Source: Chaetoderma sp. LZ-2023a (lineage: Eukaryota; Mollusca; Caudofoveata; Chaetodermatida; Chaetodermatidae). Taken from it: DNA of 64,000 nt. The position numbers and the translations under genes are program-made. Numbering within the stretch: the stretch's first letter is position 1; every line of letters begins with the position of its first letter. Below are positions 12,133-28,690 of this stretch, in pieces. The stretch lies in contig CM067373.1 of assembly GCA_034401795.1 (NCBI GenBank), forward strand, positions 41,237,781 through 41,301,780, written 5' to 3'. The notes under the pieces are model-generated. The model did no database searches and was not told the origin of the DNA. It saw only the letters and a list, made by a program, of their open reading frames with translations.

Positions 12133-12242
12133 AGTAGTATAGCCGGTAGTAGAAAAATACCACCTCCCTCAACTGGCCGCCATTCTACGATCCGCGGCCC
12201 CCACTGCCCTCTCAATCCCTGGGCATAGGAATTTGAGACATG
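12133..12242 (+). repeat. left terminal inverted repeat of the Polinton
   Basis: The first 40 bases match the reverse complement of the right end almost exactly. The rest, to GAATTTGAGACA, matches with scattered changes. Copies begin with AG, as is usual for Polintons. Confidence 0.9.
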
Positions 12243-12254
12243 TGATGTTCGTGG

Positions 12255-12774
12255 TCAAGATGGGAGTTGCTGACATGGAAATAAAACTCTCTGTTGGATC
12301 CCACTGTCCGGAAGAACCTCCTCAGGATACCGGCCAGTGGCCGGCCTCTCTCTATTCTGTGTATGCTCAGACAAACACGTAGTCTCTGCGAGAGTCGCAT
12401 CGGCATAATGGGACCACCCATAGGGGCTTCCATCTACCTTGACAACGCTCACGTGGGAGGAGGCTAAAGTGATTAGCATGTGAACCACGACAGACTCTGG
12501 GATGTTCACATGTTATGCAGAGAATCTGGTGCTGAGCAGGGGTCTCCAGCAGACAACCACGGCCTACCCTCTCCACCCCATAGAAGTGGCAGACAGACTC
12601 GATCTCTTTACGTGGGTGAAAGCGGTCGTAAATGTTTCTCCGCAAGGGGTCTCCCCAAGGATTGTACTGGGAATCATCCCGGAAGTGGGCCCACTTGGCA
12701 TCCAATATCATGGCAGTCTCAGCGCCCTGTGCCACTGCTGTAGACGCCGGCACGAGCAGTATGATGAGAATCAT
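12255..12774 (-). pseudogene. Polinton ORF, putative secreted or membrane-associated protein
   Basis: ATG 12774 opens a frame whose first 17 residues (MILIILLVPASTAVAQG) look like a cleavable signal peptide. The following part is rich in charged and aromatic residues with several cysteines. Near 12510 the likely frame changes to one running to 12255, with a hydrophobic stretch (VVVHMLITLASSHVSVVKV). A TTTAA/ATATA promoter motif lies immediately upstream on the minus strand at 12779-12795. The protein family was not recognised. It could be a virion envelope or entry-type protein given the signal peptide, but that is only a guess. Confidence 0.45.
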
Positions 12775-12795
12775 GGCTATATATGAAGAGTTAAA
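12775..12795 (-). promoter_or_regulatory. Polinton-type promoter motif
   Basis: On the minus strand TTTAA (12791-12795), then seven bases, then TATATAG, CC and the ATG at 12774. Confidence 0.55.
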
Positions 12796-12962
12796 TTGAA
12801 CAGAGTAAATCCCTCGAGAAATATCTGTGCCAGATCAAGCCCTGTTTCATCCGGATCGATAGTGATCTTCATCCCCTCAGGGGCAGGGGCTAGCTGCTTC
12901 ACTATTCCGCTGGCTAAGAAATGTAGCTCTAGGACTATATGAGTCGTTTGCGGGCTAGTGAG

Positions 12963-13753
12963 TCAGACTCGCTGGATTAGTTTAACAGCACCCTTGACTT
13001 TGGAGACATGTGATACCCCATCTACCCATAAGGTGCCCTCCTGGAGGTTAACAGCTTCTTCAGGTCCATCGAATGGACGACGCAGCAGGAGCTTTCCACC
13101 TGTACTCCCGATCCCGTGACCCACCCTCATCAGGGAGGGACCTTCACCTATGTAGGTGAAGAAGGCTGATCCCCGATTGTAGAGCTTTCGAACTGTCCCA
13201 TCCTTTTTCACAACAGTGGAGAGTGGAGTAACCTCTATAGCAATGAGTGCAGGAGGCCTATATAGGGGCAGCCATGTTTGCCAGTCACCCCCAGGTCCAG
13301 CGCGGTACCACACTTCATTCTTCTCAAATATGAACTGCAGGTTTTTTGCCATGGTCAATAGCAGGCCATCACGGGCCATCGGCGGGGCACCGCTCGAATA
13401 GGGTTTGATTAGATGAAAGCTGAGGTCACTATTTAGGGTGTTGATGTCTGCCACCTCTGTATCCGAGAGCTCAATCAACGGCTCGAGGACGTACTTCCTC
13501 TTCAGGAAATCATACCGAAACACGATCTTGTGGCCACCTATGTTGTGACACAGGCATGCCTTCATCACATCCTTGAGGTCTGTGAGCAGCTCCACCCATC
13601 ACCACCAATGGGGTGGAGGGAGAATGCCTTTGAGCTTGCTTCGTACTGTAAGGCGAATGACTTGCCATCGCTCTCTTCCACTTTGGCAGCATCAACTGCG
13701 TACACATCTGCGAGGTCAGCAAGACCAGTCGAGTGATCAAATATGGGTTCCAT
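12963..13753 (-). pseudogene. Polinton protein of unknown function, beta-rich
   Basis: ATG 13753 begins MEPIFDHSTGLADLADVYAV. Near 13600 the frame shifts to a 210-codon frame ending at 12963, giving about 263 residues in all. The C-terminal two thirds alternate hydrophobic and polar residues with many Gly and Pro (for example WLPLYRPPALIAIEVTPLS), suggesting a beta-sandwich. That, the size and the element context make a structural virion protein possible, but no family was recognised. It is transcribed divergently from the gene at 13792, with only 38 bp between the two start codons. Confidence 0.5.
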
Positions 13754-13791
13754 AGCATGCTATAGGAGGGGTTTAAACGAGACATATAACC
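13754..13791. promoter_or_regulatory. bidirectional Polinton promoter
   Basis: The palindrome GTTTAAAC (13771-13778) is shared by two divergent genes. Plus strand: TTTAAA, then ATATAA at 13784-13789, then ATG 13792. Minus strand: TTTAAA, then CCTATAG at 13760-13766, then ATG 13753. The whole intergenic gap is 38 bp. Confidence 0.6.
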
Positions 13792-14175
13792 ATGCTGATT
13801 GTCCGAGTTCTGCTCTCCGGTGGTGAGAACGTAATCTCGGCCTCTCTAGAGGGGAGACGGGTGGTACAGTACCGTGTAGAATGGGTCCTCTTCGACGTGC
13901 CCCAGCGGGGCACAACATACATACACGCCGATGTGCTACATCAACCTCCGGGCAGTGCACACAGCAGCTCACTGGTAGAAGTCGGCCAGGACGTGATAGA
14001 GTATCTCCCAGGTGCCAACAGCAACCTATGGAAAGCTATCAGTCCTAGCCTGTTCACACCTGTAAATCACCTGTTTGACAGCCCCTCCATTAACATATAT
14101 GCCAGCACGGATGGGATATCAGACGCTCATTTAGAGCTTACACTCTTATTACTCCTTGACCTGATGACAACATGA
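13792..14175 (+). CDS. Polinton small protein, unknown function
   Basis: The intact 127-codon frame starts at ATG 13792, directly downstream of the motif at 13771-13789. The sequence is beta-like in its first half (MLIVRVLLSGGENVIS). It ends in a hydrophobic Leu-rich tail after HLFDSPSINIYASTDGISD. The TGA overlaps the ATG of the next gene (ATGA at 14172-14175). No cysteine cluster or catalytic motif was seen and the family was not recognised. Its position inside the Polinton suggests a virion or accessory role. Confidence 0.6.
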   Translation: MLIVRVLLSGGENVISASLEGRRVVQYRVEWVLFDVPQRGTTYIHADVLHQPPGSAHSSSLVEVGQDVIEYLPGANSNLWKAISPSLFTPVNHLFDSPSINIYASTDGISDAHLELTLLLLLDLMTT

Positions 14176-14765
14176 TATCATATCAGGAATATCTGACCTT
14201 TTCCGAGATGATGAAAGAGGGTTGCCCCTTCATGACCCCTGCACAAAACGAACAGCTGCTCGCATAGCAACAAGAAGGAGAGCGACTACAGTGGGAGAGC
14301 TGGTATCAACAGAACGCGAGCATTGCAAGGAGGCGAAAGAACAGTGAATCTTCCAAATACTGGCAGGACCTCCTGAAGAAGAGTAAGCTGGACACAGGAG
14401 TCTTGACAGACGGCGATGAGCCAGATGTCTTCACATACGACGATGAGCCAGATGTCTTCACAGACGAGGATGAGCCAGGTGTCTTCTCAGACGGGGATGA
14501 GCCAGAGGTCATACAGTGGGAAGAGGAGATGGCGCAGAAGTGTAAGACCAAGAAAGCCCTCCAGCGGCAGACCTACTATCTTGGTGATAAGGTGAAGTTC
14601 CAGATGTTATGTCTCAGAAAGCTACTGGCACCTGACATAGTGCTGGATGACCACTGTCTAAGAGACGTCTTCCTCAACACCCGCAAGCTGGTATGGTTCG
14701 CCGGGCTCTCCAAAATGAACCCTTCTATGACTCATGAGCAGATTCTGCAGGTGATGCCGGTTTAA
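14172..14765 (+). pseudogene. Polinton acidic-repeat protein
   Basis: ATG 14172 overlaps the preceding stop. The frame is open to TAA 14763 except for one TAG near 14266. Four tandem acidic units of 8-10 residues, built around DEP(D/G/E)VF, fall at about 14409-14513. The N-terminus is helical and charged. After the repeats a basic helix (KCKTKKALQRQTYYLG) and a Leu-rich segment follow. The repeats suggest a flexible interaction region. The function is unknown. The 3' end leads straight into the motif that precedes the next gene. Confidence 0.5.
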
Positions 14766-14780
14766 GCCTCCAGATATACT
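14761..14780 (+). promoter_or_regulatory. Polinton-type promoter motif
   Basis: TTTAAG at 14761-14766 is followed after 7 bases by ATATA at 14774-14778 and ATG at 14781. The first T is shared with the stop region of the upstream gene. Confidence 0.55.
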
Positions 14781-15405
14781 ATGGCAAAAAAAGGGTGGCA
14801 GATGCAACCAGAACTATACCCCTCCCTGACTGCTGATGAGGGTGGTACCATCCATGGCTGGCGACTCCAGCAGATAGATACCATCAGGCAGAATCTCGTC
14901 CATGAGGCAGAAAAGTACAGCAGAACGTGCAGGTGATATAAGACAGCATACAAAGTCCTCGCACGTACAACCACTGCTGCAGGTGTGATTGGAGCCAGTG
15001 CTGGTGTGGCAGCTGTGGCCACTCACTACAGGGGTGGGTGCCCTCGTCGCCATCCTGCTGGGTGGTTTGACACTAGGCGCCGCTGTCTTGGCCACAGGCT
15101 TGGGGGTGGGGCAGCGGCAGATCACAAGGAGGCTGGAGAAGCATGCTAAATACGTGACACTGGCACAGAGTATGCTATGGACTATCGACGAGTCTGTCAG
15201 CAAAGCTCTCGAGGATGGCCAGGTCACCGATGAAGAGTACCACCATATATTGAAGGTCCAAGCCCTGTACTGCATGGAGAAACCTAAGGTGCGACAGCAA
15301 TACCTCAAAGGCTCTAGCGGGTGGGTTGACATGGAGGAGCTAAAAAACGAGATGTTATGGCGAGGTCACCCCGCCGGTCTATGGAGTCGAGACAACTACA
15401 ACTAG
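14781..15405 (+). pseudogene. Polinton two-transmembrane protein
   Basis: The frame begins MAKKGWQMQPELYPSL and continues through a charged helix to a TGA near 14935, in a spot where arginine would fit. After a frameshift near 15025 it runs to 15405. The centre has two adjacent hydrophobic segments (AGVIGASAGVAAVATHY and GVGALVAILLGGLTLGAAVLATG), followed by a long amphipathic helical part (ITRRLEKHAKYVTLAQSML) and a helical tail. The layout of charged helix, hairpin of two membrane segments and helix suits a small membrane protein. No family was assigned. Confidence 0.5.
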
Positions 15406-15425
15406 TGTGCTGCCTGTATGGTAGC

Positions 15426-15444
15426 TTTAAAAACACCAGCATAG
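15426..15444 (+). promoter_or_regulatory. Polinton-type promoter motif
   Basis: TTTAAA (15426-15431), then ATAG (15441-15444) directly abutting ATG 15445. This is a weaker TATA block than in other copies. Confidence 0.45.
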
Positions 15445-16695
15445 ATGGCCTTCCCACTGAACCTCATGACAGTCATCTGGAGCCAACCGCCCCTCCTGGG
15501 TACACCCTTGACTGGCCTGAGAGGTCTACTGGATGATATACCAGAGCTAACACCATTCTCCATCACAGTGGATGGACGGTCCCGAACCAGCATCTCCATC
15601 AACCCACGACCGCTGACCAACCGCCCGATCACCACCAAGGATGCGAAGCAAGCTCATACTTGGATGGCTGCTCCTGGCCTCTCATACTGGAATCAGCAGC
15701 TGAACTTTGCCATGTGGTAAACGTGGTAGGATGTGGAGTAAGTTCCACCCTGCTTCACTCCTATTCTGGTACTCCTGAAGCTGTGCTCATCGCCAGCTGT
15801 CTCAGATTCCATGTGTACTTCACGGTGCAACGAATCCTCCATGAGCTGGGTGCAAGCCTCCCTGATACAAACGACTTCGACCCACAGCTCAACAGTCATA
15901 GCGTCTCAGTAGCCAGCAGACTACAGAGAGAGTTCAGCGCTCACCCAGACTATTGGTGGCATGGTGGTGACAACAGCGGCCTAGGGGTTATGTACGGTGA
16001 CCCAAGACGTGACTACTCAGGATTCCCCCATCGAACACCCCGATGAGTAGGCCGCAGGAAGACAGCGACATTCTCGTTCGATCCAGACTCTGACCCTGGA
16101 GCACTGGTGCAAAATATGCACATCACTGGCTTGCAGCAGGACAATCCAGATGTGATGAAGTACTATGTCCCACACATCACCTCAGGCCTCACACCAGCAG
16201 GGATCATTCGGATCAACAGATCAAGCTGCGCCATTCCATAGATGGTGTCAGCGGAGCAGAGGTCCAGGCCATGTTCATCAGTCTCGTTGAGGATATGATT
16301 ATCGTGGCAGACCCCAGTAGTCTTATTGCTAAGTTCTAGCAGGGGTTGCAGAAGGCCCGTCCCAAAATTGACTTTGCTATTTCACCACACCTCCGAGCAA
16401 CATGATCATGAACATTGAGGACCTCCATGTCAGGGGCTATAACAACAGGATAGCCAACGGGGGTTCCCCCGGTGTCCAGTTCGGCTTCAACACTGCTATC
16501 AATGCACCTACGCGTATTACTGGCCATGCAGTCGTTCCGACCCTGACATTGCAGCCAGTCGACACGACGCTTCCCATGGCAGCTCCGACCCCGACACTGC
16601 AGCCAGTCGACACGACACCACTTTCCATGGTAGCTCTACGAGTGTTGTCAGGCCTAGCTATCATGGCGCTCGGGATCAGCCTACTCCGCCGCTAG
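15445..16695 (+). pseudogene. largest non-enzymatic Polinton protein; candidate structural protein with C-terminal anchor
   Basis: The first piece (15445-15720) starts MAFPLNLMTVIWSQPP and contains LRGLLDDIPELT. A frameshift near 15715 leads to a piece ending near 16046, and after further breaks coding-like sequence continues to 16404, where ATGA leads into the piece 16402-16695. That last piece has two 16-18-residue repeats built on TLQPVDTT and a C-terminal transmembrane helix (LSGLAIMALGISLLRR). Joined by position this would be about 415 residues, larger than any other non-enzymatic gene here, so a major virion component is plausible. No jelly-roll signature can be proven by eye. The last piece may instead be a separate gene. 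Confidence 0.5.
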
Positions 16696-17025
16696 CAAAT
16701 CAGCTATAAGACTATCCTGACTCTCTACAGTAGCAGTGGGGACGACGGTGAGACACTGAACCAGCTTGGCCTGCCCTACAGCCCCTATACACGCTGCCAA
16801 CATGCATATGCAAGGGCTGGATGATTCCACAGCGCATCCTTTTTCCAGCTTGTAGTATCGCAGAGCCTTGTGCAGCTCTGAGTCAGGTGAGGCCACGGAG
16901 GTCTGCAACTGCTGGAACATATCTGACAGATACTCTCGATCCTTTGAGAAACCTTTAGCTCGCAGGAGCTGCTCGACGATACTCCCGCCCATGATAAGGT
17001 ATTCGAGGAAGCAGATCTGCCCCAT
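16681..17025 (-). CDS. Polinton small hydrophobic-ended protein
   Basis: The minus-strand frame, from ATG 17025 (a GTG at 17049 would extend it in frame), starts MGQICFLEYLIMGGS. It is helical and charged in the middle (KDREYLSDMFQQLQ) and has a Cys- and Ala-rich hydrophobic stretch (SPCICMLAACIGAVGQAKLV) near the C-terminus. It overlaps the 3' end of the preceding plus-strand gene by 15 bp, tail to tail. No TTTAA/TATA motif is obvious upstream. The family was not recognised. Confidence 0.4.
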   Translation of the reverse strand: MGQICFLEYLIMGGSIVEQLLRAKGFSKDREYLSDMFQQLQTSVASPDSELHKALRYYKLEKGCAVESSSPCICMLAACIGAVGQAKLVQCLTVVPTATVESQDSLIADLLAAE

Positions 17026-17190
17026 ACCAAATCCTAGATAGAGCTTCACAGCTAAGATGTCTCAATAGAGAGATGAATATTCCTGAGTACCAACCCAGCC
17101 ACCTGGCAGATGCAGACTGGTAAGATCTTATTAGATCTCTCGACAGGGGACGCAGACATTTAACAGCGTTGCATACTCAGTGCTTAAACA

Positions 17191-17544
17191 ATGACGTCAA
17201 TGGTACAGATCGTGAAGCAACTGCCCGAGAGCCAGGTGAGTCTTCAGAAGGTGGAGAACCTGCTGCCAACCAAGACACAGGAGTTACTGACCAAAGCAAA
17301 ACCTCTGGCAGTCCATGTCGCCAGTAACGTGGCAGCGAATGTGGCCGTGGTGAAGATGGCAGGTGGAAATGAGGTTCTTCCTGCCGCCACTGCGGCTGTC
17401 CTCGCTACAGTGGTGTGTGGGGTGGCTGGGCACTGTCTCGGAATAACTCACCCCATCCCAAAGATCGCCCTCAGTGGTGCATCCTACACTGTTGCTGCCA
17501 AGATCATGGGTGAACGTGTTACATTAATGGAGGCCGCAGTCTAG
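17191..17544 (+). CDS. Polinton small membrane protein
   Basis: The intact 117-codon frame starts at ATG 17191. Residues 1-40 are polar and helical (QLPESQVSLQKVENLL). The rest contains Ala/Val-rich hydrophobic stretches around residues 42-56 and 62-85 (AATAAVLATVVCGVAGHCLG), then PIPKIALSGASYTVAAK. A weak TTTAA lies at 17159. The small size and membrane character resemble minor membrane proteins of tailless dsDNA viruses, but no homology is claimed. Confidence 0.5.
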   Translation: MTSMVQIVKQLPESQVSLQKVENLLPTKTQELLTKAKPLAVHVASNVAANVAVVKMAGGNEVLPAATAAVLATVVCGVAGHCLGITHPIPKIALSGASYTVAAKIMGERVTLMEAAV

Positions 17545-17610
17545 GTCTAGCAACGAGTGCAATGGCTGAGATCATCGTCGCCTACGTTTTAACCCTCTGA
17601 ATAGGGAGAG

Positions 17611-17835
17611 ATGGATCACGAGACCCCTGCAGCATATGAGGCATGGCGTGCTGGAGGACGGTGTGTAGCTCATAGTCGAGCACGTGGACTGAGGATCACC
17701 AATGTCCAGGAATGGTGGACTGCCCACAAGGCGTGCCCCTGCAGAGAGGGCCAGTACCCTGAGCACTGGTACCTATTCCCTTGGCCAACTGCGTGGTCCT
17801 CCTATGCCCAACTATTTCACTGGGGGTATGACTAG
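17611..17835 (+). CDS. Polinton small protein, Trp- and Cys-containing
   Basis: The 74-codon frame follows TTTTAA (17587-17592) and ATAG (17601-17604), the local promoter pattern. The sequence has several aromatic residues (VQEWWTAHKACPCREG, then EHWYLFPWPTAW). It ends immediately before the motif of the next gene. The function is unknown. The short length lowers confidence, but the upstream motif supports it. Confidence 0.4.
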   Translation: MDHETPAAYEAWRAGGRCVAHSRARGLRITNVQEWWTAHKACPCREGQYPEHWYLFPWPTAWSSYAQLFHWGYD

Positions 17836-17839
17836 TGGA

Positions 17840-17861
17840 TTTAAGCCATGTATATAGCACT
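17840..17861 (+). promoter_or_regulatory. Polinton-type promoter motif
   Basis: TTTAAG (17840-17845), five bases, TATATAG (17851-17857), then ATG 17862. This is one of the best matches to the consensus. Confidence 0.6.
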
Positions 17862-18368
17862 ATGACTCTGTCACTCACATACCTAGAAAGCAAAGGGCTA
17901 GGCGATCTTGCTCACTTAGGCGAGGCACGCCTCGGTTCAGAGGACACTGTTGCCCCTATCTCCTTCCTTCACTTCGATGAGAAGGGAGACCCATGGGAGA
18001 TCCGAGGTACCATCCCAGCCCGAGATCTCATCGGGAACACTGATACGGTAGGACAATCGGCCATTAACAAGGCCAAGACTGTATACAAAGGGATGGGCAT
18101 CAAAGACAGGGCAACGATGCGAGGTATGCTCGGAGTTGATGAGGCTGGTGCCATCAAGGTTATGGCTGAGTCCTATGCACAAGACCTGGTTAAGGATCTA
18201 CTGAAACCACGGAGCTCATTTCAACAGGAAGGAGAGAATCTCAGGGTGGGCACCATCGGCCTGAGAAATATCACTGTCGATGGCAAAAAAGGTGCTACTG
18301 CCAGCCTCCAGCTACCAGAGGTGAAGAAGTCAGGGTTCTTTGGTTTGCTGTTTAAGACCACAGGGTAG
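17862..18368 (+). CDS. Polinton conserved-looking protein, unknown function
   Basis: The intact frame of 168 residues starts at ATG 17862; a longer form from GTG 17835 is less likely because it would place the start upstream of the TATA block. The sequence is soluble and mixed alpha/beta, with LHFDEKGDPWEIRGTIPARDL, a basic helix (INKAKTVYKGMGIKDRATM) and a C-terminal KKSGFFGLLFKTTG. No catalytic motif was recognised. It is followed after 2 bp by the next gene and then by the ATPase, so the three may be expressed as one unit. Confidence 0.6.
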   Translation: MTLSLTYLESKGLGDLAHLGEARLGSEDTVAPISFLHFDEKGDPWEIRGTIPARDLIGNTDTVGQSAINKAKTVYKGMGIKDRATMRGMLGVDEAGAIKVMAESYAQDLVKDLLKPRSSFQQEGENLRVGTIGLRNITVDGKKGATASLQLPEVKKSGFFGLLFKTTG

Positions 18369-18370
18369 TC

Positions 18371-18649
18371 ATGGCTTCCCGTGCATGTATCATACAGATA
18401 CTGGATATGCTAACCACTGTGGGTGCTGACACAGGCCCTCTACGCTATCTTCTCAGTTGCTGCCGGGATTTCATGCTTGACACCTCCATCGCATCCTTCG
18501 TATCCGCCGGAGGTTCAGGATTCCCCGCTCTGCAGACGAAAGAGCTGGTGCAGGAAGTACTGCCGTTTAGTCTCCCAGATATAGACGAGGCTACCGCCGA
18601 CCAAGTGCTAACCATCCTCCGCACACATGTCTGTACCATTCGACAGTAG
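18371..18649 (+). CDS. Polinton small protein upstream of the ATPase
   Basis: The 92-codon intact frame starts at ATG 18371, two bases after the previous stop, with no promoter motif of its own. It overlaps the ATPase start by 23 bp. The sequence is helical and leucine-rich (ILDMLTTVGADTGPLRYLL, then ATADQVLTILRTHVC). Tight packing suggests co-expression with its neighbours. The family was not recognised. Confidence 0.5.
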   Translation: MASRACIIQILDMLTTVGADTGPLRYLLSCCRDFMLDTSIASFVSAGGSGFPALQTKELVQEVLPFSLPDIDEATADQVLTILRTHVCTIRQ

Positions 18650-19286
18650 GCCGGCCAATGCTGGCCAGGTGGAGCTGATCATTGACCCGTCAGGACATGG
18701 GAAAAACATCTTGCTGTGGGCTCTCCTGGCCGAACATCTACACTCTCAATACATCCTTCTGGTGTCTGACTCCGCCGCTGAGGTGGTTGACCATAATGAT
18801 CAATGGTACAATGGACCAATCACCAAGATGCAGAACCTGCAAGCACTGATGGAGAAGCTGCTGGCAGCCTGACTGACAGAACCACTTGTTCCAGTTATCG
18901 ATGACCCTGCAATGGACCAGAAGACAGTCACCTACCTCAGCAACATCACCAGGTGCATCCGGCACACACAGATAACTGTCTTCATCCTCTTTCAGAAGTA
19001 CACACGCGAGAGCTCACCAGACATCCGCCACAATGCCTGGTTGCTATACTTCAGCTCCAAGTGTGGACGTGCCCTACTCGAGACCATATAAGACAGCCTA
19101 ACCCTCAAGGAGACCAAGGGGGACTTTATCGCCGGTGTACAGAGGGCAGCTGAGCTGTACCGCTTCATCTTCAGCAACAAGGAGACAGGCGAGCTGTCAC
19201 ACTTCAAGCCATCTCTGGAAAAGGCACAGACCTTCACCTATAAGCTACCAGCCAGAAAACTAACCAGCTCTACGCCTCATCGCTGA
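18627..19286 (+). pseudogene. Polinton FtsK/HerA-like genome-packaging ATPase
   Basis: One frame runs from ATG 18627 to TGA 19284, interrupted by a TGA at 18870 and a TAA near 19089. A Walker A-like loop reads DPSGHGKN (the final Ser/Thr of GxxGxGKS is Asn here), followed by a helix and a strand QYILLVSD. Shortly after the first stop, VPVIDDPAM fits a Walker B strand ending in two acidic residues. Then comes an FILFQK strand with Gln at the sensor position. About 219 residues is the normal size for these Polinton/PLV packaging ATPases, which would drive DNA into the capsid. The stops make this copy non-functional. Confidence 0.75.
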
Positions 19287-20173
19287 CAGAATGTCGCAGC
19301 TGCCGCAACTTTTTTAAAGGCTGCGTGGTCTCTGCTACTTCGTCCACGGTCTCTGCAACTTTGTCAGATGCTAGAGGAACTTCGTCAGAAGCTTGAGGAA
19401 CTTCGTCAGAAGCATGAGGAACTTCGTCAGAAGCCTGTCGCTTAAACTATATCCACTGAGGGTCAGATGGTAGGACTCTCTTCTTCTGGAACTCCTCACG
19501 GAAGATCCACTTTGTCCATGCGTGATGAGCATCTGACTTGCGAGCGGATTTGATGAGGTAGTCCTGGTAGTTAACTGGGAATTTCAGAAATGCTGCCAGA
19601 TTACTGGTCAATCTCCTGCGCCATTCTTCATTGAAGATGTGCTCAACAGCTTCCTTGTGGCCAATGGTGAACCCCTCCTAAGTACCTTCTGCATGACCGG
19701 TGTCATGACTCCGCTGCAGCAGCACTGACCTCCTCCCTGAAGTAGTTATTTGCTCCAGACTGGAGGCTATCCAGCATCTCCCGCTCTTCCTGGCTATGGA
19801 GGCTAAATACGGCAGCCCACTTCCCGACCATTAGTAGATCTTTGGGGTCGACCCTCGCCTTTTGGAGAGCTAGAATAACAGGACTGTTAGTTTGGGCGAC
19901 ATGCAGGTCGAGTGTCCTGCCCTGGGTGCTGTCAAACTTCCGGTAGCGTATCCGAGTCAGGAGTTCTTTTGTACTATGAGCTGGCACTCCTTCCTTTATG
20001 GCGGCCAGTATCTCCGCATCAGACGGAGTTGTGACCTTGGCTCGCTCGTGGATAATGTTGATGTCACGAAGCAGTCCTCGGACCCTGTCACAGTGGGACA
20101 GTGCACGCCGTGGCTGTCGTGCCGACTTGTCCTGCTGTCTATAGACAATCTGCTGGAGAACTTTACCAAACAT
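19270..20173 (-). pseudogene. Polinton protein with C-terminal ASDEVP repeats
   Basis: ATG 20173 starts a 156-codon frame (MFGKVLQQIVYRQQDKSARQ) ending at 19703. After a frame change coding-like sequence resumes near 19677 (GFTIGHKEAVEHIFNEEW) to a TAG at 19447. Beyond that stop the same frame continues with three 7-residue units (ASDEVP plus one residue) and related DKVAETVDEVAETT, ending at 19270. The 3' end overlaps the ATPase 3' end, tail to tail. A promoter motif lies upstream. The body is mainly helical and charged. No family was recognised. Confidence 0.5.
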
Positions 20174-20211
20174 GGCAGCCGTTTAACCCCTCTATATACC
20201 CAGACCTTAAA
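20174..20211 (-). promoter_or_regulatory. Polinton-type promoter motif
   Basis: On the minus strand TTTAAG (20206-20211), seven bases, TATATAG (20192-20198), then ATG 20173. A second TTAAAC lies between. Confidence 0.55.
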
Positions 20212-20302
20212 CATGCTGCAGTATGTGCAACATCCAGCTGGGGCCATTGAACCCGCGACATCGCACCACACTGATCCTCGGAAGGACTGCTTGACAGTCA
20301 TT

Positions 20303-21290
20303 TGACCCAGTATACATGATGAGAATCCATTGTCCGCTGCTTGGAAGTACATAGACTTTGCAATCTCGGCACAGATCCACGAGATCAAGAGCATGACACT
20401 CGAGTTCAAGCTTCAGAGCACAATAGAACAGATGGTAGAGCTCCCGCAGGTTCTGAACAGGTGGGAGATCATGCAGAGCAACAGCACCGTGGACACCACC
20501 TATGTAAACAATGAGTACCGAGGCCTAGGTCCGCTGGCTCGTGGACCAACCTTCTATGCGAAGGGAAAGGGGGTACTACGTTGAGGGGTGCAATGAGAGG
20601 TTCACGGAATTAGAACTACGGGTAGGTGTCGAGAAGCATGTGGCAGTTCCACTCTTATCCCTCCTCGAGAACACACACGTGAATCCAGCTGCCATGCAGG
20701 ATAGGCTGTTCCTCCAGGTGTACACTGAGCAGCTCGCAGATGCGACGATGAATGGTCCAAGACTCCATGTCTGACATGACGAGAATGACCAGGAACTGAA
20801 GCAAACAGGTTCCAAACAGCGGATCGTGCATGTGGAACAAGAACACCAGCAGGTCCAAGCCACAGCTAACCAACGGGTAGAGCTGACATTGTATCATGGT
20901 GCATCAGCCTGTGTCGCTGTTGCAGTCCTGGTTCAGAAGGGAGGAGCCATCCAGCAGGTGGATAAGCTAGACGACTTCAAGCTTGTGGTTGCTGGGACCA
21001 ATGTTCTTGGTGAGATACGCGTGCTGGCTAACTGCCAACTCTACAGACAGAAAACTAAGTCATATGCACTTCTGCAACTAAAATGTGGAAGTGATGACCT
21101 CGAGTCGGCAATCAAGGGCGGGCACCACCTCGGGGGCAGGAACATCCCACCTAATCAGGGCAACCGGCTCAGCTTCAACATCAGAAACCTCATAGCTGGG
21201 ACTCGCTCATTAGGTGTGACAGTACTTTACTTTGGCTATGCTAAGGTATGCGCGTCGAACACATCAGGTATTCAGCTTGAGCGTGCATAG
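20303..21290 (+). pseudogene. Polinton candidate capsid-type protein
   Basis: Coding-like sequence begins near 20303 without a clear ATG in frame, runs to 20584, shifts frame near 20570, meets a TGA near 20772 and continues to 21290; in all about 325 residues. It has a regular run of short hydrophobic strands (VAVPLLSLLENTHVNP, then RVELTLYHGASACVAVAVLV, and SLGVTVLYFGYAKV at the end) with Gly/Asn loops, as in jelly-roll folds. Together with its position two genes after the ATPase, this makes a capsid protein, perhaps the minor (penton-like) one, a reasonable hypothesis. No specific motif proves it. Confidence 0.4.
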
Positions 21291-21639
21291 AGCACGACTC
21301 CTGTCATCACTGCTGCAGCTGCCACCACTACTATAAGCTCTGCTGTCTTCTGACCTGTCAATGCTTCATAGTCGAGCGTTGGCTCAGATATCTTTACAGC
21401 CTCGTTGTACTCATCGAGACTCTCATCTGCCTGTTTGAGGCTCTGGTTGGCCTGAGCTCTGAGTTGGCGTCGGCGTGCGTCCCTCTGGCGCATATGCTCG
21501 ATGGCTTTGCTGTACTCAAATTTCTCCTTAGATAGCTTCGCCATCGCCTGGTTATGACGCTCATGCTCGACCTCTGCCGCCTTCTTGTCCCCAGTTCGCT
21601 AAGGCAAACACACCCCACATTCAAGATTGCGGATGCCAT
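21272..21639 (-). pseudogene. Polinton coiled-coil protein with C-terminal membrane anchor
   Basis: ATG 21639 follows CTATAG and TTTAAA on the minus strand. A frame change near 21600 leads into a 90-codon frame that is a long charged helix (AIEHMRQRDARRRQLRAQA, coiled-coil-like) ending in a transmembrane segment (AELIVVVAAAAVMTGVVLYA) and ARSS. It overlaps the 3' end of the capsid candidate by 19 bp and is divergent from the gene at 21690. The function is unknown. Tail-anchored helical proteins of this size could bridge capsid and membrane, but that is speculation. Confidence 0.5.
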
Positions 21640-21689
21640 GCTATAGACTACAGTTTAAAGCTGCTATATAGCTGTCTCCAGCGACGGAT
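21640..21689. promoter_or_regulatory. second bidirectional Polinton promoter
   Basis: TTTAAA (21654-21659) serves both directions. Plus strand: TATATAG at 21665-21671, ATG 21690. Minus strand: CTATAG at 21641-21646, ATG 21639. Confidence 0.55.
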
Positions 21690-22136
21690 ATGTATGAACA
21701 AGAGGCTTATGAAGATCCAGTCGAGGATATAAATGACGAGGACTATGAGGAGTACTATGATGAGGAGGATTATGATGCAGATGACTACGATGTAGCGGAG
21801 ACGGCGGGTGAGTATGATGATGTAGCGGAGACCACGCCTGAATCCCACAGGCTAGTACACAGAGCAAAAGGAATCTATCGCACTGACATGAAAGGTTCTA
21901 TCTGTCCACTGGCAGCAGTTGGGGCTCTGATCGCTCTGTTCACAATGAAGGCTGGCGAGACGGTCTGCAAGATCGCCAACAATGCTCTCCATGGGGTGGA
22001 GAGGATTTCTGAAGCCATACCAGCCATCGCCTCAGGAGTAGGTACGTTCTTCGGAGTCGCAGGCCCTTGGCTACCATATGTTGCCATAGCGCTCACGGCC
22101 ATCTGGGCTGCCGAACATTTAAGCCGTACTATATAA
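21690..22136 (+). CDS. Polinton acidic N-terminus membrane protein
   Basis: The intact 148-codon frame starts at ATG 21690. The first 50 residues are extremely acidic and tyrosine-rich (DEDYEEYYDEEDYDADDYD), with DVAET twice in a row. A short basic segment follows. The C-terminal half is hydrophobic, with at least two probable membrane helices (CPLAAVGALIALFTM, then WLPYVAIALTAIWAAE). Acidic tail plus membrane domain suggests a virion membrane or scaffolding role. The family was not recognised. Confidence 0.55.
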   Translation: MYEQEAYEDPVEDINDEDYEEYYDEEDYDADDYDVAETAGEYDDVAETTPESHRLVHRAKGIYRTDMKGSICPLAAVGALIALFTMKAGETVCKIANNALHGVERISEAIPAIASGVGTFFGVAGPWLPYVAIALTAIWAAEHLSRTI

Positions 22137-22138
22137 GG
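22118..22138 (+). promoter_or_regulatory. Polinton-type promoter motif
   Basis: TTTAAG (22118-22123), seven bases, ATATAAG (22131-22137), ATG 22139. It lies inside the end of the previous gene. Confidence 0.6.
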
Positions 22139-22384
22139 ATGGCATCTCTGTGCGACCTGGTCAAATCCCTTTACTTCCAAGGGTTGGTCGGTAAACTACT
22201 GTTCAGTGAGGATCCAGCAGAGATTAGATGCCAATGTATGGAGGTGTTTGAGGAGGTCTTCAGTGATGGTCGAATGAATGACGGCCATCTGTTCATCTGT
22301 TTAGAGTTCACCCAGACTGTGCGTGACAGGATGGGAGTGGGCGTCAGTGAAGAAATCCGGGAGTTTATCAACCGTCGTTCTTGA
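22139..22384 (+). CDS. Polinton small acidic protein upstream of integrase
   Basis: The intact 81-residue frame starts at ATG 22139, directly after a strong promoter motif, and runs MASLCDLVKSLYFQGLVG to INRRS. It is soluble and acidic, with an FEEVFSDGRMNDGHLF segment. Its stop overlaps the likely integrase start (CTTGAGG, where ATGA may once have stood). The family is unknown. It is probably co-transcribed with the integrase. Confidence 0.5.
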   Translation: MASLCDLVKSLYFQGLVGKLLFSEDPAEIRCQCMEVFEEVFSDGRMNDGHLFICLEFTQTVRDRMGVGVSEEIREFINRRS

Positions 22385-23337
22385 GGAACTATCAGCCTGG
22401 TGGATATTACCATGAGCCCACTCAACTACTCGAGGCTGCACGTCGCAAGGGCGAAAACTTCACATTGGAGACAGTTAGCCAGTGGCTCAGCCACCAGGCG
22501 ATGTGGCAGATATACAAACCTCGTCCATGGCACATCAGGCATGCCCATTTCGAGGAAACTGTCCCAAACAGAGTTCACCATGCAGATGTTCTATTCCTTC
22601 CACACAACTCGGTTGGTCGTAAGACCTACAAGTATGCCCTCACCATCGTCGATGTCACCAGCAGGTACAAGGCTGCAGTACCCCTCACAGACAAGTCACC
22701 TGGCCATGTGGCCCAGGCATTCCAGGGTGTCTACGAGTCTTCCCCTCCAGTGGCCGGAATTGTTGCAGGTGGATGAGGGTAAGGAGTTCAGAGGGGAGAC
22801 TGCAGCATTCATGCAGAAACACGGTGTGGCAGTTAGGCGAGACGACGTAGGGCATCACCGTGCCCAGGCTATCATTGACTGGTGGAATTGGTCACTGGCA
22901 GAGGGACTGTTCCAACACCAATACGCCCAGGAAATGGCCGCACCGAGTGAACGTTCTAGAGTATGCGTGAGAGGGCTGCCTGCTGTGGTGGAGAGATCCA
23001 ATGCCGGGGTTACCAGCCTAATCGGGAAGAAGCCAGTAGAGGCTATCAGACACTCTGCTGGTCACAGCTCTAGAGGAGCTAACAAGGGAGAGGAGTGCCT
23101 ACCATCTGGTGCTCTGGTTCGGTACCTGTATGAGCCTGGTGAGCTGGAAGGCGGTCGATGGCGTGCAACAGATTCTAACTGGTCAATGTTCACAGGCTTG
23201 ACAGGTATGAGGAGGCGGAGGAGCGGCCTACACTGTACTACCTGGCACACCAGCACGGAGTGCCTAGGTGACCATTTGTCGTAGAAGAACTTCAGCTAGT
23301 CCCTGAAGACACACAGCTACCACCCCTAGGGTGCTAA
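22381..23337 (+). pseudogene. int: Polinton retroviral-type integrase (rve)
   Basis: Integrase would insert element ends into host DNA in the nucleus. The first frame (22381-22776) has the N-terminal region and the first catalytic Asp (HHADVLFL) with the strand YALTIVDVTSRY. A frameshift near 22760 leads to the second Asp (LLQVDEGKEFRG) and the helix that normally holds the catalytic Glu, which here reads HRAQAIIDWWNWSL, with Asp in the Glu position. The C-terminal SH3-like part follows, and another frame change near 23270 gives FVVEELQLVP before TAA 23335. The start codon appears mutated to TTG. Two independent defects make it inactive. The rve assignment is firm. Confidence 0.85.
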
Positions 23338-26300
23338 CATGATAATCGATGGGCTTGGTATGGACCCCATCTGGCAGCACATGGTGCTTATCATAGTAAG
23401 TGGAGAGTCCGAGTTTTTCCTGCGCATACGTCACCATACCCTGGTTGCGCATGTATTGGCCTCGGTTTTTAGCTCTGTCCACCCTGCCATGTAGGGCACT
23501 GTAGACCCTCAGGAGATGTCATTCTGCCGTTTAGACATTCCCTTGGTCGAGCATTTCACTTGCAAGTTTCTGCTGTTCCAGCGGTCTGTGTTCCCCACAT
23601 GGTAGCACTTGGAGCAGAGAGCAATACCACGAGTGCCTTCTAACTCGAGCTTGAACAATCCCGGAGTGCGGTTAGACCATTTGTCCCATGCCAACCAGTC
23701 CAGTTTGCAGGCCTCATACTCCGTTCGCATCTCTGGGCGTATCACCTCTTCGAGGTTGGAGCCTGATATGGCGATATAGGCAGAATCGGTGTCCATCTGC
23801 AGGTACTCGAAGCTGTCACGAGCTATGTAGCGGTCGAGGAAGTCATAGTAGAACTCCAGCATTCGCAGCTTCGCCAGCTCGTATACTGCTCTACCCACCT
23901 GGAAGGGGCGACGAATGGTGATTTTAGCCTTATGGCTCTGCAATTCGTAGGAATCACCGATCTCCTCTAAACCTCGAACCATGCGCTATGCAAGGCTCAG
24001 TCTACTGCTCGTTCATCCTTAGTGAAGCTTGTGTTGGTATGATGTTCTAATGCCATATGCACTGTTGCCGAGGAGTTTGAAGAGATCAGCCAACAAGGCT
24101 TTACTTTTGTCAACATCCCCAGTCTGCAAACCATTCAAAATGTTTCTGTGAGGTGTAGTCTATAGTGCAATAGATAGCAGTAATCTCTAACCCATGGGCA
24201 AGGTACCACTTGAGAGTTGGTGCATACAATACCCTCTTCTTACCAGAGAGTGCATCAACGAGCTTGCTAGTTGTAGACTTTTGTCGACCTGTTTTATCAA
24301 GGTATGCAAGCATCTCCGAAGGTATAGCCTCTTCTGGGATCTCACGATTATAGAAGATGGGAGACATCTCCTCGAACTTTGGCCATAACACTTTAGGTAC
24401 CTCAATGTCGACCTCAGCAAACCCGAACCAACGATCCGCTAGCAGATCCTGCTTAAAGCATTCAATATCACTGCTTACACGCCCACCCCACCGTCGTACA
24501 GTTTCTTTACCATAAGGCATTGCTTGGGCCATGGTTGACAGATACAGAGCATTTGCATCATAACCAAGGAGACGTTGACATACTCGCTTACCTTCGCAAT
24601 TTCGGGTAGCCCCAGCCTCGTGATATCTCATGAACACAATGCTCGGACCCCCAACAACAACACCCTTTAACATCTCGTAGGCTTCCTTGCCTGGAGAGTA
24701 AAGGCTATTATCCGGCTCAAGTTCAGCAGTACCACGAAGTTAGTACTGAAGCGACACACCAGGAAGTGACACCGCATCCTTCAGAATGTCTATACCTCGT
24801 TCTGTGTATAATTCTCGCATCTTCTCTAAGGCTTCAATGAACGGGCTAACATTGTTGTTGTAATATCGCAACCAGTCAGCAAACGTCTTCATCCCCAGAT
24901 CGCTGAAGGTCTGCTTACAAGCTTTCCACTCTGACAACTCAAGAAGGTAACCCCCTTTGAGCTTGGACCACCACGCAGGGTAATCAGGTAGTCCAGGATA
25001 GTCAAGTTTCTCAGGCGAGTCGAACCATTCATAAGGTAACCAGCTCTTCTGTTGCGTGCAACCGTAGGCTTTGATCCATTTCTCATAGGAAACCCCTGGG
25101 CTGAGGTAGTTGATTACATCGAGAAACCTCAGTTCAGGCGTAATGAGGAACATTGTCTGGCTAGCCTTCTTGGCGTCTTTCACCGTTCCTTTGGACGAAG
25201 TAGTAAGTTCATCCACGAAGTACTTTTGATGAGGTGAGGTCGTACCGCCCAGAGTTGAACCCGAGCACAGGCACCTGGTCACACCACTCATTGATAAGTC
25301 GCTGCTGTCGTTTTGTTAACTTGTCCAAGTTTGCGGGTAGATACTGTGACCGAGCCCTTGCACGGATCGTTGAAGCTCGTAGTTGGATCTCCTGCTTGAA
25401 CTCTGAGATCAGCACTTTGGAGTTAGCATTGCAGAGGTGATTTGGCGAGCTCATGCTACCGTCTAAGGAGCAGCCAACTGACACCGTGATTGGTATGTGG
25501 GCACTCTCGATCGTGAGACTCGATTGTTGGATCATAACCATCTACGGGAGCCCCCTCGATCCAACGCTCACCACCATGACCACACTTTGTGTGGTGTATA
25601 TGAATTCCATGGTTTCTCGACTCATATTCGATCCAACGAGTAGCCGCGGAACTGGCCGGTTGGTATGGATAGAAGGCCTTCTCGTATGGGGACTGCGGTG
25701 CTACTACCGTCTCCCCAGGGCAATCGATGGTCGTTTTCCCCCCTGTACAGCGGTCAGCATGGCGATGGAGACTACATGCTTGGGTGGTCGTACACTCCTA
25801 TTGTCATGATGGTCGGATAGTGAGCAGGTTTCCTGGTCAGATGCCAGCTACCCTCTTCAGTGGGCTCATAAACACGAATCCCTGTCTTCGCAAATAACTC
25901 TACCTTGTCCAGCTGGTCTAGGGACGTCTTTGATACGTCAGCCACAGGCCTGTTCAGGCCATAGAACTGTTTAACAAGCCCTCGTGCAGGAACTGTACTT
26001 CTATCAGTTCTTGCACCCAGCTGCACTGCTAGACATCGCCAGAGGCACATGTTATCTTTGTAGGTATCGAGTGCCACCATTCCCTTCCTCCATCAGAGCC
26101 AGACCTGGAGGGGTCCTGTCCCTAGCAGAGGCTGGCGGTCGATGACAACCTTTACCTCAACGTTGATTGATCTGATGAAGGCCCACGCGGTATTGGGTCG
26201 ATTGATATTGTCTGGCTCGAGGCGGGCTTGCTCTCTGCCCTCCACCCAAGTCTGGGTCTCTCCTAGTCTATTCATCCAGGGACTTCCTGGAGCATTCTTG

Positions 26301-26913
26301 TGGAAGAGCATTACCCTACCATCCTCGATGTGGCGGATTCGATAGGTGTGGGTATACCGACGGTGGAAGGCGTTCTGAACAGTCCGCAGCTTCTCCATGA
26401 TCCGACCTGTAATATCTCCTTCTAGCCCTCTGAAGAATGTCCAGCATACTGTTCGCCATCGTCTCTCCTCTGTCTACCTCTCACCAAGATGCTCGTTGAC
26501 AATCTGCTGACCTTCTCGCCTCATACTCCGGGCTAGGGTTTCAGATCTCGGTCCCCTCATTAATCGTCTTCTGATTTGGTCTATAAGAGGTAGGCGTTCT
26601 TGTGGATGGCTTGCCATCCGAGTTGCTACAGCTTTGGCACATAAGCTGACATTCGTCTCCTCATACAACTGACGACTCTCACGGACCAGCTGTGCTTTCT
26701 TGTGCTTTCAGAGGTGAGCGCCAGAAACCTCCCTGTCTATGTTGCTCGGGAGAGTCGCTTTAGCCACTCCTCGGCGAGGATGGGGAGTTGCTTTCGCCAC
26801 TCCTCGGCATTGGCGTGTGCAATCATCCGGAGCAGGTTGGCTTTGCGGGCCTTAGAATAGCCTCTAGGACCGAATTGCTTTGCCATCACTCGAAGCTGTG
26901 TAACAGTAACCAT
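23264..26913 (-). pseudogene. polB: Polinton protein-primed DNA polymerase B with SAP-like N-terminus
   Basis: About 3.65 kb, the length of a 1,200-residue Polinton polymerase, broken into at least eight frame segments. From ATG 26913 the N-terminus reads TVTQLRVMAKQFGPRGYSKA, a SAP-like DNA-binding motif. The exonuclease domain shows VDGYDP near 25550 and FNSGRYDL near 25240. The palm has motif A GYDANALYLS near 24575 and motif C QMDTDSAY near 23795; the C-terminal YDKHHVLPDGV is typical of the family. It would copy the element by protein priming. Its 3' end overlaps the integrase tail to tail. The normal stop seems lost, so 23264 may be too far downstream. Confidence 0.88.
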
Positions 26914-27009
26914 GATGCAAGGTCTATATTTAGATCTTAAACCTTTCTGACTTACAGTAACCCTGATGCAAGGTCTATATATTAGATCTTAAACCTATAT
27001 ATTAGATCT
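26914..27009 (-). promoter_or_regulatory. polB promoter motif, present in about three tandem copies
   Basis: On the minus strand TTTAAGATCTAAATATAGAC (near 26921-26941) lies just before ATG 26913. A near-copy is at 26972-26994 and a partial one at 26996-27009. The block fits the TTTAAG/ATATAG pattern seen before other genes of this element. Confidence 0.6.
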
Positions 27010-27300
27010 GTGGGTGGTGTATATCCCTGTGGATGCCTGTCTCTAAATGGTCGCTCAGACCCTATTATGTGTGGCAATCAGTACCTGTGAGTGGTGTATA
27101 TCCCTGTGGATGCCTGTCTCTAAATGGGCGTTCAGACCCTATTATGTGTGGCGATCAGTACCTGTGGGTGGTGTATATCCCTGTGGATGCCTGTCTCTAA
27201 ATTGGCGTTCAGACACTATTATGTGTGGTGATCAGTACCTGTGGGCGGTGTATATCCCGTATATCCCTGTGGAGTCCTGTCTCTAAATGCGTGGCATGCC
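27005..27300. repeat. 77-bp tandem repeat, about four units
   Basis: Units begin CTGTGGGTGGTGTATATCCC near 27009, 27086, 27163 and 27239 and are about 95% alike by eye. The last unit has a small internal duplication of TATATCCC. They sit between the polB promoter block and the right-end gene. No coding sense was seen. Confidence 0.9.
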
Positions 27301-27359
27301 GCATTTAAGTTCTTCCATAACTAAACTGAACTTTCTCTGGGCACAGACCTTCTTGTCGT

Positions 27360-27566
27360 TCATTCTGTTGGAATGTTTATGACCCCGTATGCTTTACATA
27401 GTCTACAGTCTGTATAAATACCTGCCCCGCATCCTCTGCATGGCTTCGGCTCAACAGAAGCCTTCTGAATCTGAGCATTGTGTGTCGCACAATATTCTCC
27501 AACACAGTTCCTTAAGCATCGAAAAGGCTTACCTCGCATAAGCCATTTGCATGTATTATAATGCAT
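27360..27566 (-). CDS. Polinton small Cys-rich (zinc-ribbon-like) protein
   Basis: The intact 68-codon frame starts at ATG 27566 (MHYNTCKWLMRGKPFRC). Nine cysteines and one histidine occur in spacings that suit zinc binding: CLRNCVGEYCATH, then PCRGCG and DCRLCKAYG. It is the last gene before the right inverted repeat. A variant promoter motif (ATTAAG, then GATATAG) lies upstream on the minus strand near 27579-27595. A small nucleic-acid-binding or regulatory protein is the natural guess, but nothing specific was recognised. Confidence 0.6.
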   Translation of the reverse strand: MHYNTCKWLMRGKPFRCLRNCVGEYCATHNAQIQKASVEPKPCRGCGAGIYTDCRLCKAYGVINIPTE

Positions 27567-27650
27567 GTTTGATAAAGTCTATATCAAGATCTTAATCCTT
27601 GGGCTGATGGGTGTAGGGCCTGGGTATCTTGTATGTATTTGTGTGGCCCA

Positions 27651-27759
27651 TGACTCAAATTCCTATGCCTCAGGAATTGAGAGGGTGGTGGGAGCTGCGG
27701 ATTATGGAACGGTTGCCTGTGGAGGGAGGTGGTATTTTTCTACTACCGGCTATACTACT
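27651..27759 (-). repeat. right terminal inverted repeat of the Polinton
   Basis: Reverse complement of the left repeat, ending CCGGCTATACTAC(T). The final T may belong to the element or to the target duplication. Confidence 0.9.
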
Positions 27760-28690
27760 ATAATTTCTTTAACTGTTTATAGTTATTCTTATTTTACTGT
27801 AAGGTGTCTTTATTAACCACACAGTAGTAGGTCTTCCAACCTGTACTATATATATTATCTTAATCATTCCACTGTATTATTTGTACCGGTTAGTCTTATA
27901 TATGGCAAGTAGCCATTCGTTCACATGTTTTGTTCATTTATATATACAACACATTCCCCCGCCACCAACAATTTTTCACTGAGGTTGCTGTCCATGCTAT
28001 AACTCTGTTTAGCCCGGCATGCTAGTGACTAAAAAGCGTTGCTATTCAGCTCGATAGGATAGGTTTAAAATGATTAGAGACAATCTCTTCGTTGAGGAAC
28101 ACATAGTGTATGCTTCTTTTCTGGTAGTTGCGATAATCTAGCCCCGCACTCCGGCAAGCTTGTGTAAAATTGACCAAAATACCTATTGGGCCTCATATTT
28201 AAAGTTATTGTCTCTTCATGTTCCACTAAGCCTTATGGCTTCTTAATTGTTTGGATAATGGTAATGATAGATCAGTTGCCTAAACTTGCTTATGTGAAAA
28301 GGAACCATTGTCCTGTGACGTTTTATGTGGTTATGGAGCAGGATGTCCGGATTCTCACCCAGCTCGAAGGTCTTGTGAAATAACATGTATGCACCCTGTC
28401 TTCAGTATGGATGTCTTAGGACATCAGTTCTCAATGACAGCAGCATCTAAAAGTTAGGTATTGCACCCACCATTTGCGGCCTAAACTAGTTCATGTCACT
28501 GAAAACTGAATGTTACGTTTGACATAGAAGAAGGCCCACATAAATAAAAGCGGCACCTACTAATTCAGCATACTTAAAACTACATAAGATGGTAGCATGG
28601 GAATCCTTCGGGAATTGCTCATCCCGTCTTCATGTAAAACAGCACACAATGTTATAATCTTAGATTCACTAGGTATGGTCTTTTCTTCAT

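Follow-up and report, generated by a model that had tools for sequence, protein, structure and literature searches.

A two-box signal of fixed spacing precedes most genes of a Polinton in the mollusc Chaetoderma and probably acts as a core promoter

Do the genes of an animal Polinton carry a transcription signal of their own and, if so, what kind of machinery would read it? The question is raised by a Polinton at positions 12133–27758 of a 64,000-nucleotide stretch of DNA from Chaetoderma sp. LZ-2023a (contig CM067373.1 of assembly GCA_034401795.1; the whole stretch is called the window below), the single element that holds the findings reported here. A sequence-only reading of the window had described TTTAA(A/G), a TATA-like block and a nearby ATG in front of most of the genes, on both strands, and had taken this for an element-specific, virus-like signal. 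The two boxes are non-randomly frequent, lie ahead of gene starts, keep a fixed spacing and are maintained in copies of the element. From the sequence we infer that they form a promoter and that initiation takes place inside the second box.

The signal was defined strictly as TTTAA followed by TATA starting 11–15 bases after the first T (the dyad). In the Polinton, 12 of the 26 TTTAA words on both strands qualify; 500 dinucleotide shuffles averaged 0.10 and never exceeded 2, so that the proposed enrichment over shuffled sequence was borne out. No TATA other than those at 11–15 occurs at offsets 0 to 53 past TTTAA on either strand of the element; the gap is short, as had been noted, but tighter than claimed in the 12 strict cases. 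When all 4-mer pairs with gaps of 0–24 were scanned without regard to genes, TTAA-N7-9-TATA ranked first, with 16 occurrences seen versus 0.68 expected in the masked element and 16 versus 0.76 in the unmasked one. The strict dyad is found at just 3 of 131 TTTAA words in 48 kb of host flanks, in agreement with a signal specific to the element, and it is absent from the coding interior of the element away from a gene start or its duplicate, as the expected rarity inside coding sequence requires. Across the 17 strict and variant sites given below, information is low outside both boxes (−15 to +44; −60 to −1), and no position in the 60 bases 5′ of TTTAA exceeds 0.55 bit. The sixth base of the upstream box is A or G, as described, and also C (TTTAAC at 12795(-), 17159(+), 17588(+) and 20182(+)); at 11 of the 17 sites a G follows the TATA-like block. 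The shuffles, the blind pair scan and the low information outside the boxes led to the rejection of chance, plain duplication and simple A/T richness as sources of the pattern.

The dyad is tied to gene starts. Eleven of the 12 strict dyads have an ATG 15–40 bases downstream; the twelfth, at 26993(-), duplicates the promoter of the family B DNA polymerase (PolB) gene at 26941(-). The element has 652 ATGs, and a strict dyad lies 17–40 bases upstream of 14 of them (some share one dyad). A frame of 50 codons or more begins at 11 of the 14, versus 144 of the 638 others (p 1.9e-5); this ATG-wide test is the unbiased measure of the link. A strict dyad precedes 11 of 19 listed gene starts (one of which has two candidate ATGs), a variant precedes six (15445, 17159(-), 17191, 17611, 18371 and 27566), and 14172 and 18627 have no dyad upstream. 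The distance from TTTAA to the ATG is 19–24 in 10 of 17 cases and 28–38 in the other 7, and never below 19. The sites are as follows.

12778–12795, minus strand: TTTAAC-N6-TATATAG; ATG 12774 at offset 21
13772–13789, plus strand: TTTAAA with TATAA; ATG 13792 at offset 20; TTTAAA common with 13777(-)
13760–13777, minus strand: TTTAAA with TATAG; ATG 13753 at offset 24
14761–14779, plus strand: TTTAAG with TATAC; ATG 14781 at offset 20
15426–15444, plus strand: variant, TTTAAA with CATAG; the block abuts ATG 15445
17159–17176, plus strand: TTTAAC with CATAC; ATG 17191 at offset 32; faces 17188(-)
17171–17188, minus strand: TTTAAG with TATGC; ATG 17159 at offset 29
17588–17604, plus strand: variant, TTTAAC with AATAG; ATG 17611 at offset 23
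17840–17857, plus strand: TTTAAG with TATATAG; ATG 17862 at offset 22
18351–18368, plus strand: TTTAAG with GGTAG, within the end of the gene before it; ATG 18371 at offset 20
20182–20199, plus strand: TTTAAC with TATATAC; ATG 20213 at offset 31; TATATA common with 20211(-)
20192–20211, minus strand: TTTAAG with TATATAG; ATG 20173 at offset 38
21654–21671, plus strand: TTTAAA with TATATAG; ATG 21690 at offset 36 (22 or 30 in another subfamily)
21641–21659, minus strand: TTTAAA with TATAG; ATG 21639 at offset 20; TTTAAA common with 21654(+)
22118–22136, plus strand: TTTAAG with TATATAA, overlapping the stop codon of the gene before it; ATG 22139 (integrase) at offset 21
26924–26941, minus strand: TTTAAG with TATAG, PolB promoter; ATG 26913 at offset 28
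26975–26993, minus strand: duplicate of the PolB promoter, with no start codon of its own
27578–27596, minus strand: variant, ATTAAG with TATAG; ATG 27566 at offset 30

Divergent genes are served by two devices. In one, a single palindromic TTTAAA serves both genes (13772/13777 and 21654/21659), which is the arrangement that had been recognized. In the other, two facing TTTAA boxes lie 30 bp apart with a single TATA between them (20182/20211 and 17159/17188), and the box of each gene adjoins the ATG of the other. The start at 20173(-) had been credited with the signal, rightly, but its facing partner at 20213(+), which went unreported, uses the same TATATA. The second facing pair, 17159(-)/17191(+), was likewise missed, so that palindromes are not the sole means of serving divergent genes. 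Genes packed behind another gene were said to lack the signal. This holds for 14172 and 18627, each of which begins inside the gene before it (with an ATGA overlap at 14172 and one of 23 bases at 18627) and, having no promoter, would therefore need reinitiation on a two-gene mRNA. It does not hold for 18371(+), which has TTTAAG at −20.

To what extent the signal is kept was read from copies in the 2.44-Gb host assembly. With a 1.1-kb probe, for which 40 of 4077 first-look candidates were scored, at least 39 other full-length matches of 89–92% identity were found. The best 20 copies, read across 13.6–22.3 kb of the window and 90.6–93.5% identical to it where aligned, retain the dyad at most sites, with TATA at 11–15 for 170 of 361 TTTAA words (some stretches include host DNA). 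Departures from the majority base of a column amount to 14 of 1085 (1.3%) in TTTAA and 20 of 868 (2.3%) in TATA, compared with 509 of 12331 (4.1%) at neighboring positions. This count covers 13 of 14 sites, 17588 being omitted with its alignment one base off, and takes the TATA block as starting 13 or 14 bases from the first T.

Several of the variant sites in the window are closer to the rule in the copies. The 17159(+) block (CATA in the window) and the 17188(-) block (TATG) both read TATA in 16 of 18 copies, and the GGTAG at 18351(+) reads GATAG in 19 of 19. At 27566, the variant form that had been described is indeed ATTAAG in the window, at the 27596(-) box, and is an exact TTTAAG in both covering copies among 10 stretches fetched. 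From a fetch of the same size, TTTAAC and TATATAG of the 12795(-) site are both exact in 5 of 7 covering copies. TTTAA at 17840(+) is kept in 19 of 19 copies, and at 15426(+) CATA is itself the rule (11 of 13). The copies also point to 13753 as the start for the 13777(-) box, since it is ATG in 9 of 9 copies; at 13758, 5 of 9 copies have GTG in place of the ATG.

The copies yielded some observations apart from the signal. The family appears to be very abundant, with 4077 first-look candidates for the 1.1-kb probe and 6137 for PolB (147 scored). Several of the PolB matches lie in open frames of ∼1,330–1,375 codons without an internal stop. Most alignments of the 20 copies break at window positions 17053 and 16216, which suggests small indels there in the window copy.

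Eight further stretches were read beside PolB matches. Seven of them (L049–L054 and L056) form a second subfamily, 85–91% identical to the window, in which 31 of 39 TTTAA words carry the dyad. In L049, dyads precede open reading frames (ORFs) of 356, 291, 124, 143 and 93 codons at offsets 31, 38, 20, 22 and 21. The ATG corresponding to 21690 stands at offset 22 or 30 in this subfamily rather than 36, with the spacing of TTTAA and TATA unchanged; in these sequences, what is held constant is the spacing of the two boxes, and the distance from TATA to ATG varies. Between the subfamilies, the 22139 gene differs at 14 places within its first 33 codons, 8 of them third positions. The eighth stretch, L055, is 74–81% identical to the window PolB, and an unrelated insert replaces its PolB start; its count of 0 of 22 TTTAA with a dyad is therefore uninformative on promoters. 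A PolB near it (L059, 76% identical to the window PolB over 891 bases) carries a 232-bp tandem array, L060, in place of its start, and 6 of 6 TTTAA words in L060 have TATA at 12–14. Three plus-strand TTTAAAC places in L060 each bear the two-way dyad of window positions 13758–13789, near-identical over 39–40 bases. Toward PolB an ATG is missing from the usual distance, which marks the copy as rearranged. The two-way dyad is, on this comparison, a module that travels and multiplies as a unit, which does not imply a function in L060. Between its PolB promoter and its right end, the window Polinton has a 77-bp repeat in 3.3 copies (27008–27258) that is 78–83% similar over 32–64 bases to parts of the L060 array; both could derive from a single regulatory or replication array.

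Taken together, these data are best accounted for if the dyad serves this Polinton family as its core promoter, which we consider probable. TTTAA would be the upstream box and TATA(G) the second, fixed at 13–14 bases from start to start, and transcription would begin in or right at the TATA block to give nearly leaderless mRNAs. Initiation is probably placed in the TATA block because 10 of the 17 ATGs lie only 19–24 nt from TTTAA; if these ATGs are the true starts, the block would hold or follow the start site. One copy of the dyad would serve each transcription unit, with divergent pairs using a common palindromic TTTAAA or a central TATATA. The predicted units are 12774(-), 13753(-), 13792+14172(+), 14781(+), 15445(+), 17159(-), 17191(+), 17611(+), 17862(+), 18371+18627(+), 20173(-), 20213(+), 21639(-), 21690(+), integrase 22139(+), PolB 26913(-) and 27566(-). 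None of 20 window pieces scanned with Pfam resembles an RNA polymerase, which is why a virus-type transcription machinery acting in trans, rather than the ordinary complex of RNA polymerase II (Pol II) and the TATA-binding protein (TBP), is tentatively put forward as the reader, at somewhat less than even likelihood. The further step, that the family is virophage-like and its genes are addressed to the late machinery of a large DNA virus of the host, is speculative and rather unlikely on present data.

A number of observations weigh against this account. The looser TTAA-N7-9-TATA is mildly over-represented in the right flank (12 seen versus 4.87 expected, p 0.004) and not in the left (1 versus 2.26). 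The proportion of gene starts with a dyad, 17 of 19 with variants counted, is not unbiased, because 17159(-), 17191 and 20213 were added to the list partly for the motif. The copies are kin by descent, so that the conservation counts are not independent and a p-value from them is overstated. Substitutions after the ATG in the 20 copies are not concentrated at third codon positions (76/2295, 60/2164 and 66/2124 at positions 1, 2 and 3). Between the subfamilies, four other 5′ parts have 1/1, 3/5, 1/3 and 5/14 of their differences at third positions, with no clear lean; use of the nearest ATG is therefore not proven, and codon positions give weak evidence for translation of the first codons. Dyads without a gene start behind them exist at 26993(-) and in L060. 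A search of the host assembly for VLTF3 gave no match and thus no trace of a helper, the control being equally silent. Lastly, in a distant, A/T-richer PolB family of the same genome, found with the PF03175 model and read in two 3-kb stretches, 0 of 42 TTTAA words carry the dyad. This family has no DNA similarity to the window element, and one of its genes has TATATAAA ∼45 bases before the ATG, a distance suited to a Pol II TATA box. The expectation that related elements keep the motif thus holds for the 20 copies and the second subfamily and fails in this distant family, and the L060 dyads are present but have no gene start behind them. Because of these two cases the dyad, among the elements compared, is not a feature of Polintons in general; the 0 of 42 limits the grammar to the family of the window Polinton, as opposed to all PolB elements of the genome.

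Could the boxes belong to ordinary host promoters, TTTAA being a TATA variant bound by TBP with the start ∼30 nt downstream? TTTAAA is a tolerable TATA variant. Polintons are chromosomal integrants, the 20 scanned pieces showed no RNA polymerase, and at the 7 of 17 starts with offsets of 28–38 a very short leader would be left. For the other 10, at 19–24, the start codon would fall upstream of the start site, and the next usable in-frame methionine would cost 7 to 124 residues in the window copy, one gene having none. A Pol II TATA box works 25–30 bp upstream of the start site (PMC5294985); judged indirectly by the start codons, the Polinton box is not so placed. A protein search found a single relative of the 168-residue 17862 product, 94% identical and located on a 2.7-kb JGI metagenome contig (P0121); both begin at the same methionine, although the start of the relative was chosen by a gene caller. 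Host promoters would also leave the fixed second block unexplained, and no conserved box lies within 60 bases upstream of TTTAA. A weak hint against ordinary Pol II processing comes from the single AATAAA, which is not downstream of a gene on its strand, and the lack of ATTAAA in the element; 2.8 and 2.6 are expected, and 68 and 27 of 300 shuffles had counts as low or lower. This explanation is unlikely, though the strongest of the rivals. Virus-likeness, as claimed by the sequence-only reading, is accordingly retained as a likeness of geometry and of geometry only: the ATG often lies too close to TTTAA for the latter to be a Pol II TATA box, and the arrangement is that of late promoters of large DNA viruses. 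An origin of the 5′ ends from a spliced leader was set aside, as no acceptor-like TTTCAG was seen by eye before the starts.

The remaining rivals fare worse. The dyad could be an operator for an element-made DNA-binding protein that silences or switches the genes instead of a polymerase start site; a dyad-like symmetry is apparent in the palindromes TTTAAA and TATATA and in the 30-bp facing pairs, and the L060 array looks like a multiplied binding site. Most sites, however, are directional, with the TATA block toward the ATG, and no other common core promoter would remain in the 60 bases upstream, which makes an operator quite improbable. A single-subunit RNA polymerase of phage type, mitochondrial or T7-like, is more improbable still. 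TTTAA...TATAG resembles T7-class promoters in spacing, and the G after the TATA-like block in 11 of 17 sites would fit, but the matches to such polymerases in the host assembly fall in only two mirror-image, exon-split regions of one chromosome, with no mobile-element copy among the 17 candidates, all scored. This is as expected of the mitochondrial enzyme and therefore disfavors a mobile T7-like one; neither the assembly search nor the 20 window pieces revealed a cognate polymerase in the element or in other mobile host DNA. The two regions (C1:120127194-120165785 and C1:120942081-120986535, in mirror orientation) represent a duplication or else a haplotype retained in the assembly. As for chance, or the functionless duplication of one sequence, 26941 and 26993 are duplicates, 27596 is similar to them, and L060 shows that the dyad can be multiplied in an array; low information outside the boxes across 17 sites and shuffles that never came near the count leave this explanation a negligible probability.

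The element itself shows features of Polintons/Mavericks. Many of its reading frames are broken in the window copy. It has (AGT)2//(ACT)2 terminal inverted repeats and is flanked by a 6-bp target-site duplication, TATAAT, at 12127–12132 and 27759–27764; it is inserted into a repeat, and a related copy of this repeat near 52 kb, empty of the insert, has the target once only (52176–52181). A protein-primed family B DNA polymerase is recognized through 304 homologues of one PolB piece, several of them with PF03175; the window PolB pieces themselves gave no PolB match in the Pfam scan. The retroviral-type integrase is identified on weak matches, to Pfam rve (E 0.001, under the curated cut-off) and to a PHROG transposase family (E 1.2e-5).

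12133–27758, no strand assigned: Polinton, ends AGTAGT...ACTACT, with an inverted repeat; two direct repeats overlap by 6 bases in the repeat copy near 52 kb
22139–23284, plus strand: integrase gene, frame broken in the window copy, extent set by eye from translations
23264–26913, minus strand: PolB gene, frame broken in the window copy, extent set by eye from translations

No double jelly-roll capsid protein, packaging ATPase or protease was matched in Pfam or PDB by the window pieces or by the 356- and 291-codon ORFs of L049. Fold predictions for two window proteins were dropped at a mean predicted local distance difference test score (pLDDT) of 34 and 37. Protein scans of viral_contigs and genome_contigs gave no relatives of the element proteins, nor did part of the 20213 gene as the query of a protein search. 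Because of the 94% identical relative of the 17862 product on the JGI contig, a public metagenome may contain DNA of this host species or a close one. A 21-bp tandem repeat at 19357–19434, seen also in L050–L056, encodes the SDEVPQA-like tail of the 20173(-) gene in what seems to be a variable copy number.

How does the signal compare with known systems? The vertebrate Mavericks/Polintons have the same 5′-(AGT)2//(ACT)2-3′ ends, 6-bp target duplication, PolB and integrase, and the end motif of the window element is the commonest among them (PMC8097293); a term search of the text of that article returned no promoter motif. A close match to the dyad is the late promoter of African swine fever virus (ASFV), an A/T-rich pentamer and TATATA whose starts are 14 apart, with initiation inside the TATA block: TATTT lies at −15 to −11 and TATATA at −1 to +5 (PMC5294985), a spacing described for the late motif as incompatible with a classical TBP complex (PMC7163114). 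Untemplated AU tails are also reported for ASFV transcripts (PMC7163114). The Polinton dyad likewise has two A/T blocks ∼14 bp apart, but its upstream box is TTTAA in the 12 strict sites, not TATTT. ASFV also encodes its own RNA polymerase, unlike anything seen in the 20 window pieces, and the Polinton start sites are inferred. Poxvirus intermediate and late promoters similarly combine a core element with an initiator at the start site, and late genes lack a 5′ untranslated region; their initiator, TAAA or TAAAT(G/A), and virus-encoded polymerase differ from the Polinton case (PMC5294985). In the yeast pGKL linear virus-like elements, a short box (the upstream conserved sequence, UCS) precedes every ORF and is followed by an A/T initiator, the UCS lying at a median of 11 nt from the start site and the initiator being TAAA; here the box is ATNTGA, and the elements are cytoplasmic and encode their own polymerase (PMC6211774).

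Mavirus and the endogenous mavirus-like elements are Polinton-related and have one promoter motif across their genes. Their motif is a different one, TCTA flanked by A/T, which matches that of the helper CroV, and their host is a protist; they illustrate that a Polinton-related element can carry the late promoter of a giant virus (PMC8547959). If the Chaetoderma family were virophage-like in this manner, its copies would stay silent until such a large DNA virus infects the cell, and the grammar would offer a sequence handle for the helper, namely a large DNA virus of the same host with the same late-gene signal. More generally, the compact and directional grammar predicts the transcription starts of the element and of many copies, and it bears on how the virus-type genes of Polintons are expressed outside protists and on the standing of these elements as free viruses, transposons or satellites of larger viruses. 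The sequence-only reading knew of no published description of such a signal for Polintons, and neither the titles and opening lines of abstracts returned by literature searches nor term searches inside individual papers revealed a promoter grammar described for animal Polintons; within the literature so covered, what is new here is a putative virus-type bipartite promoter in an animal Polinton.

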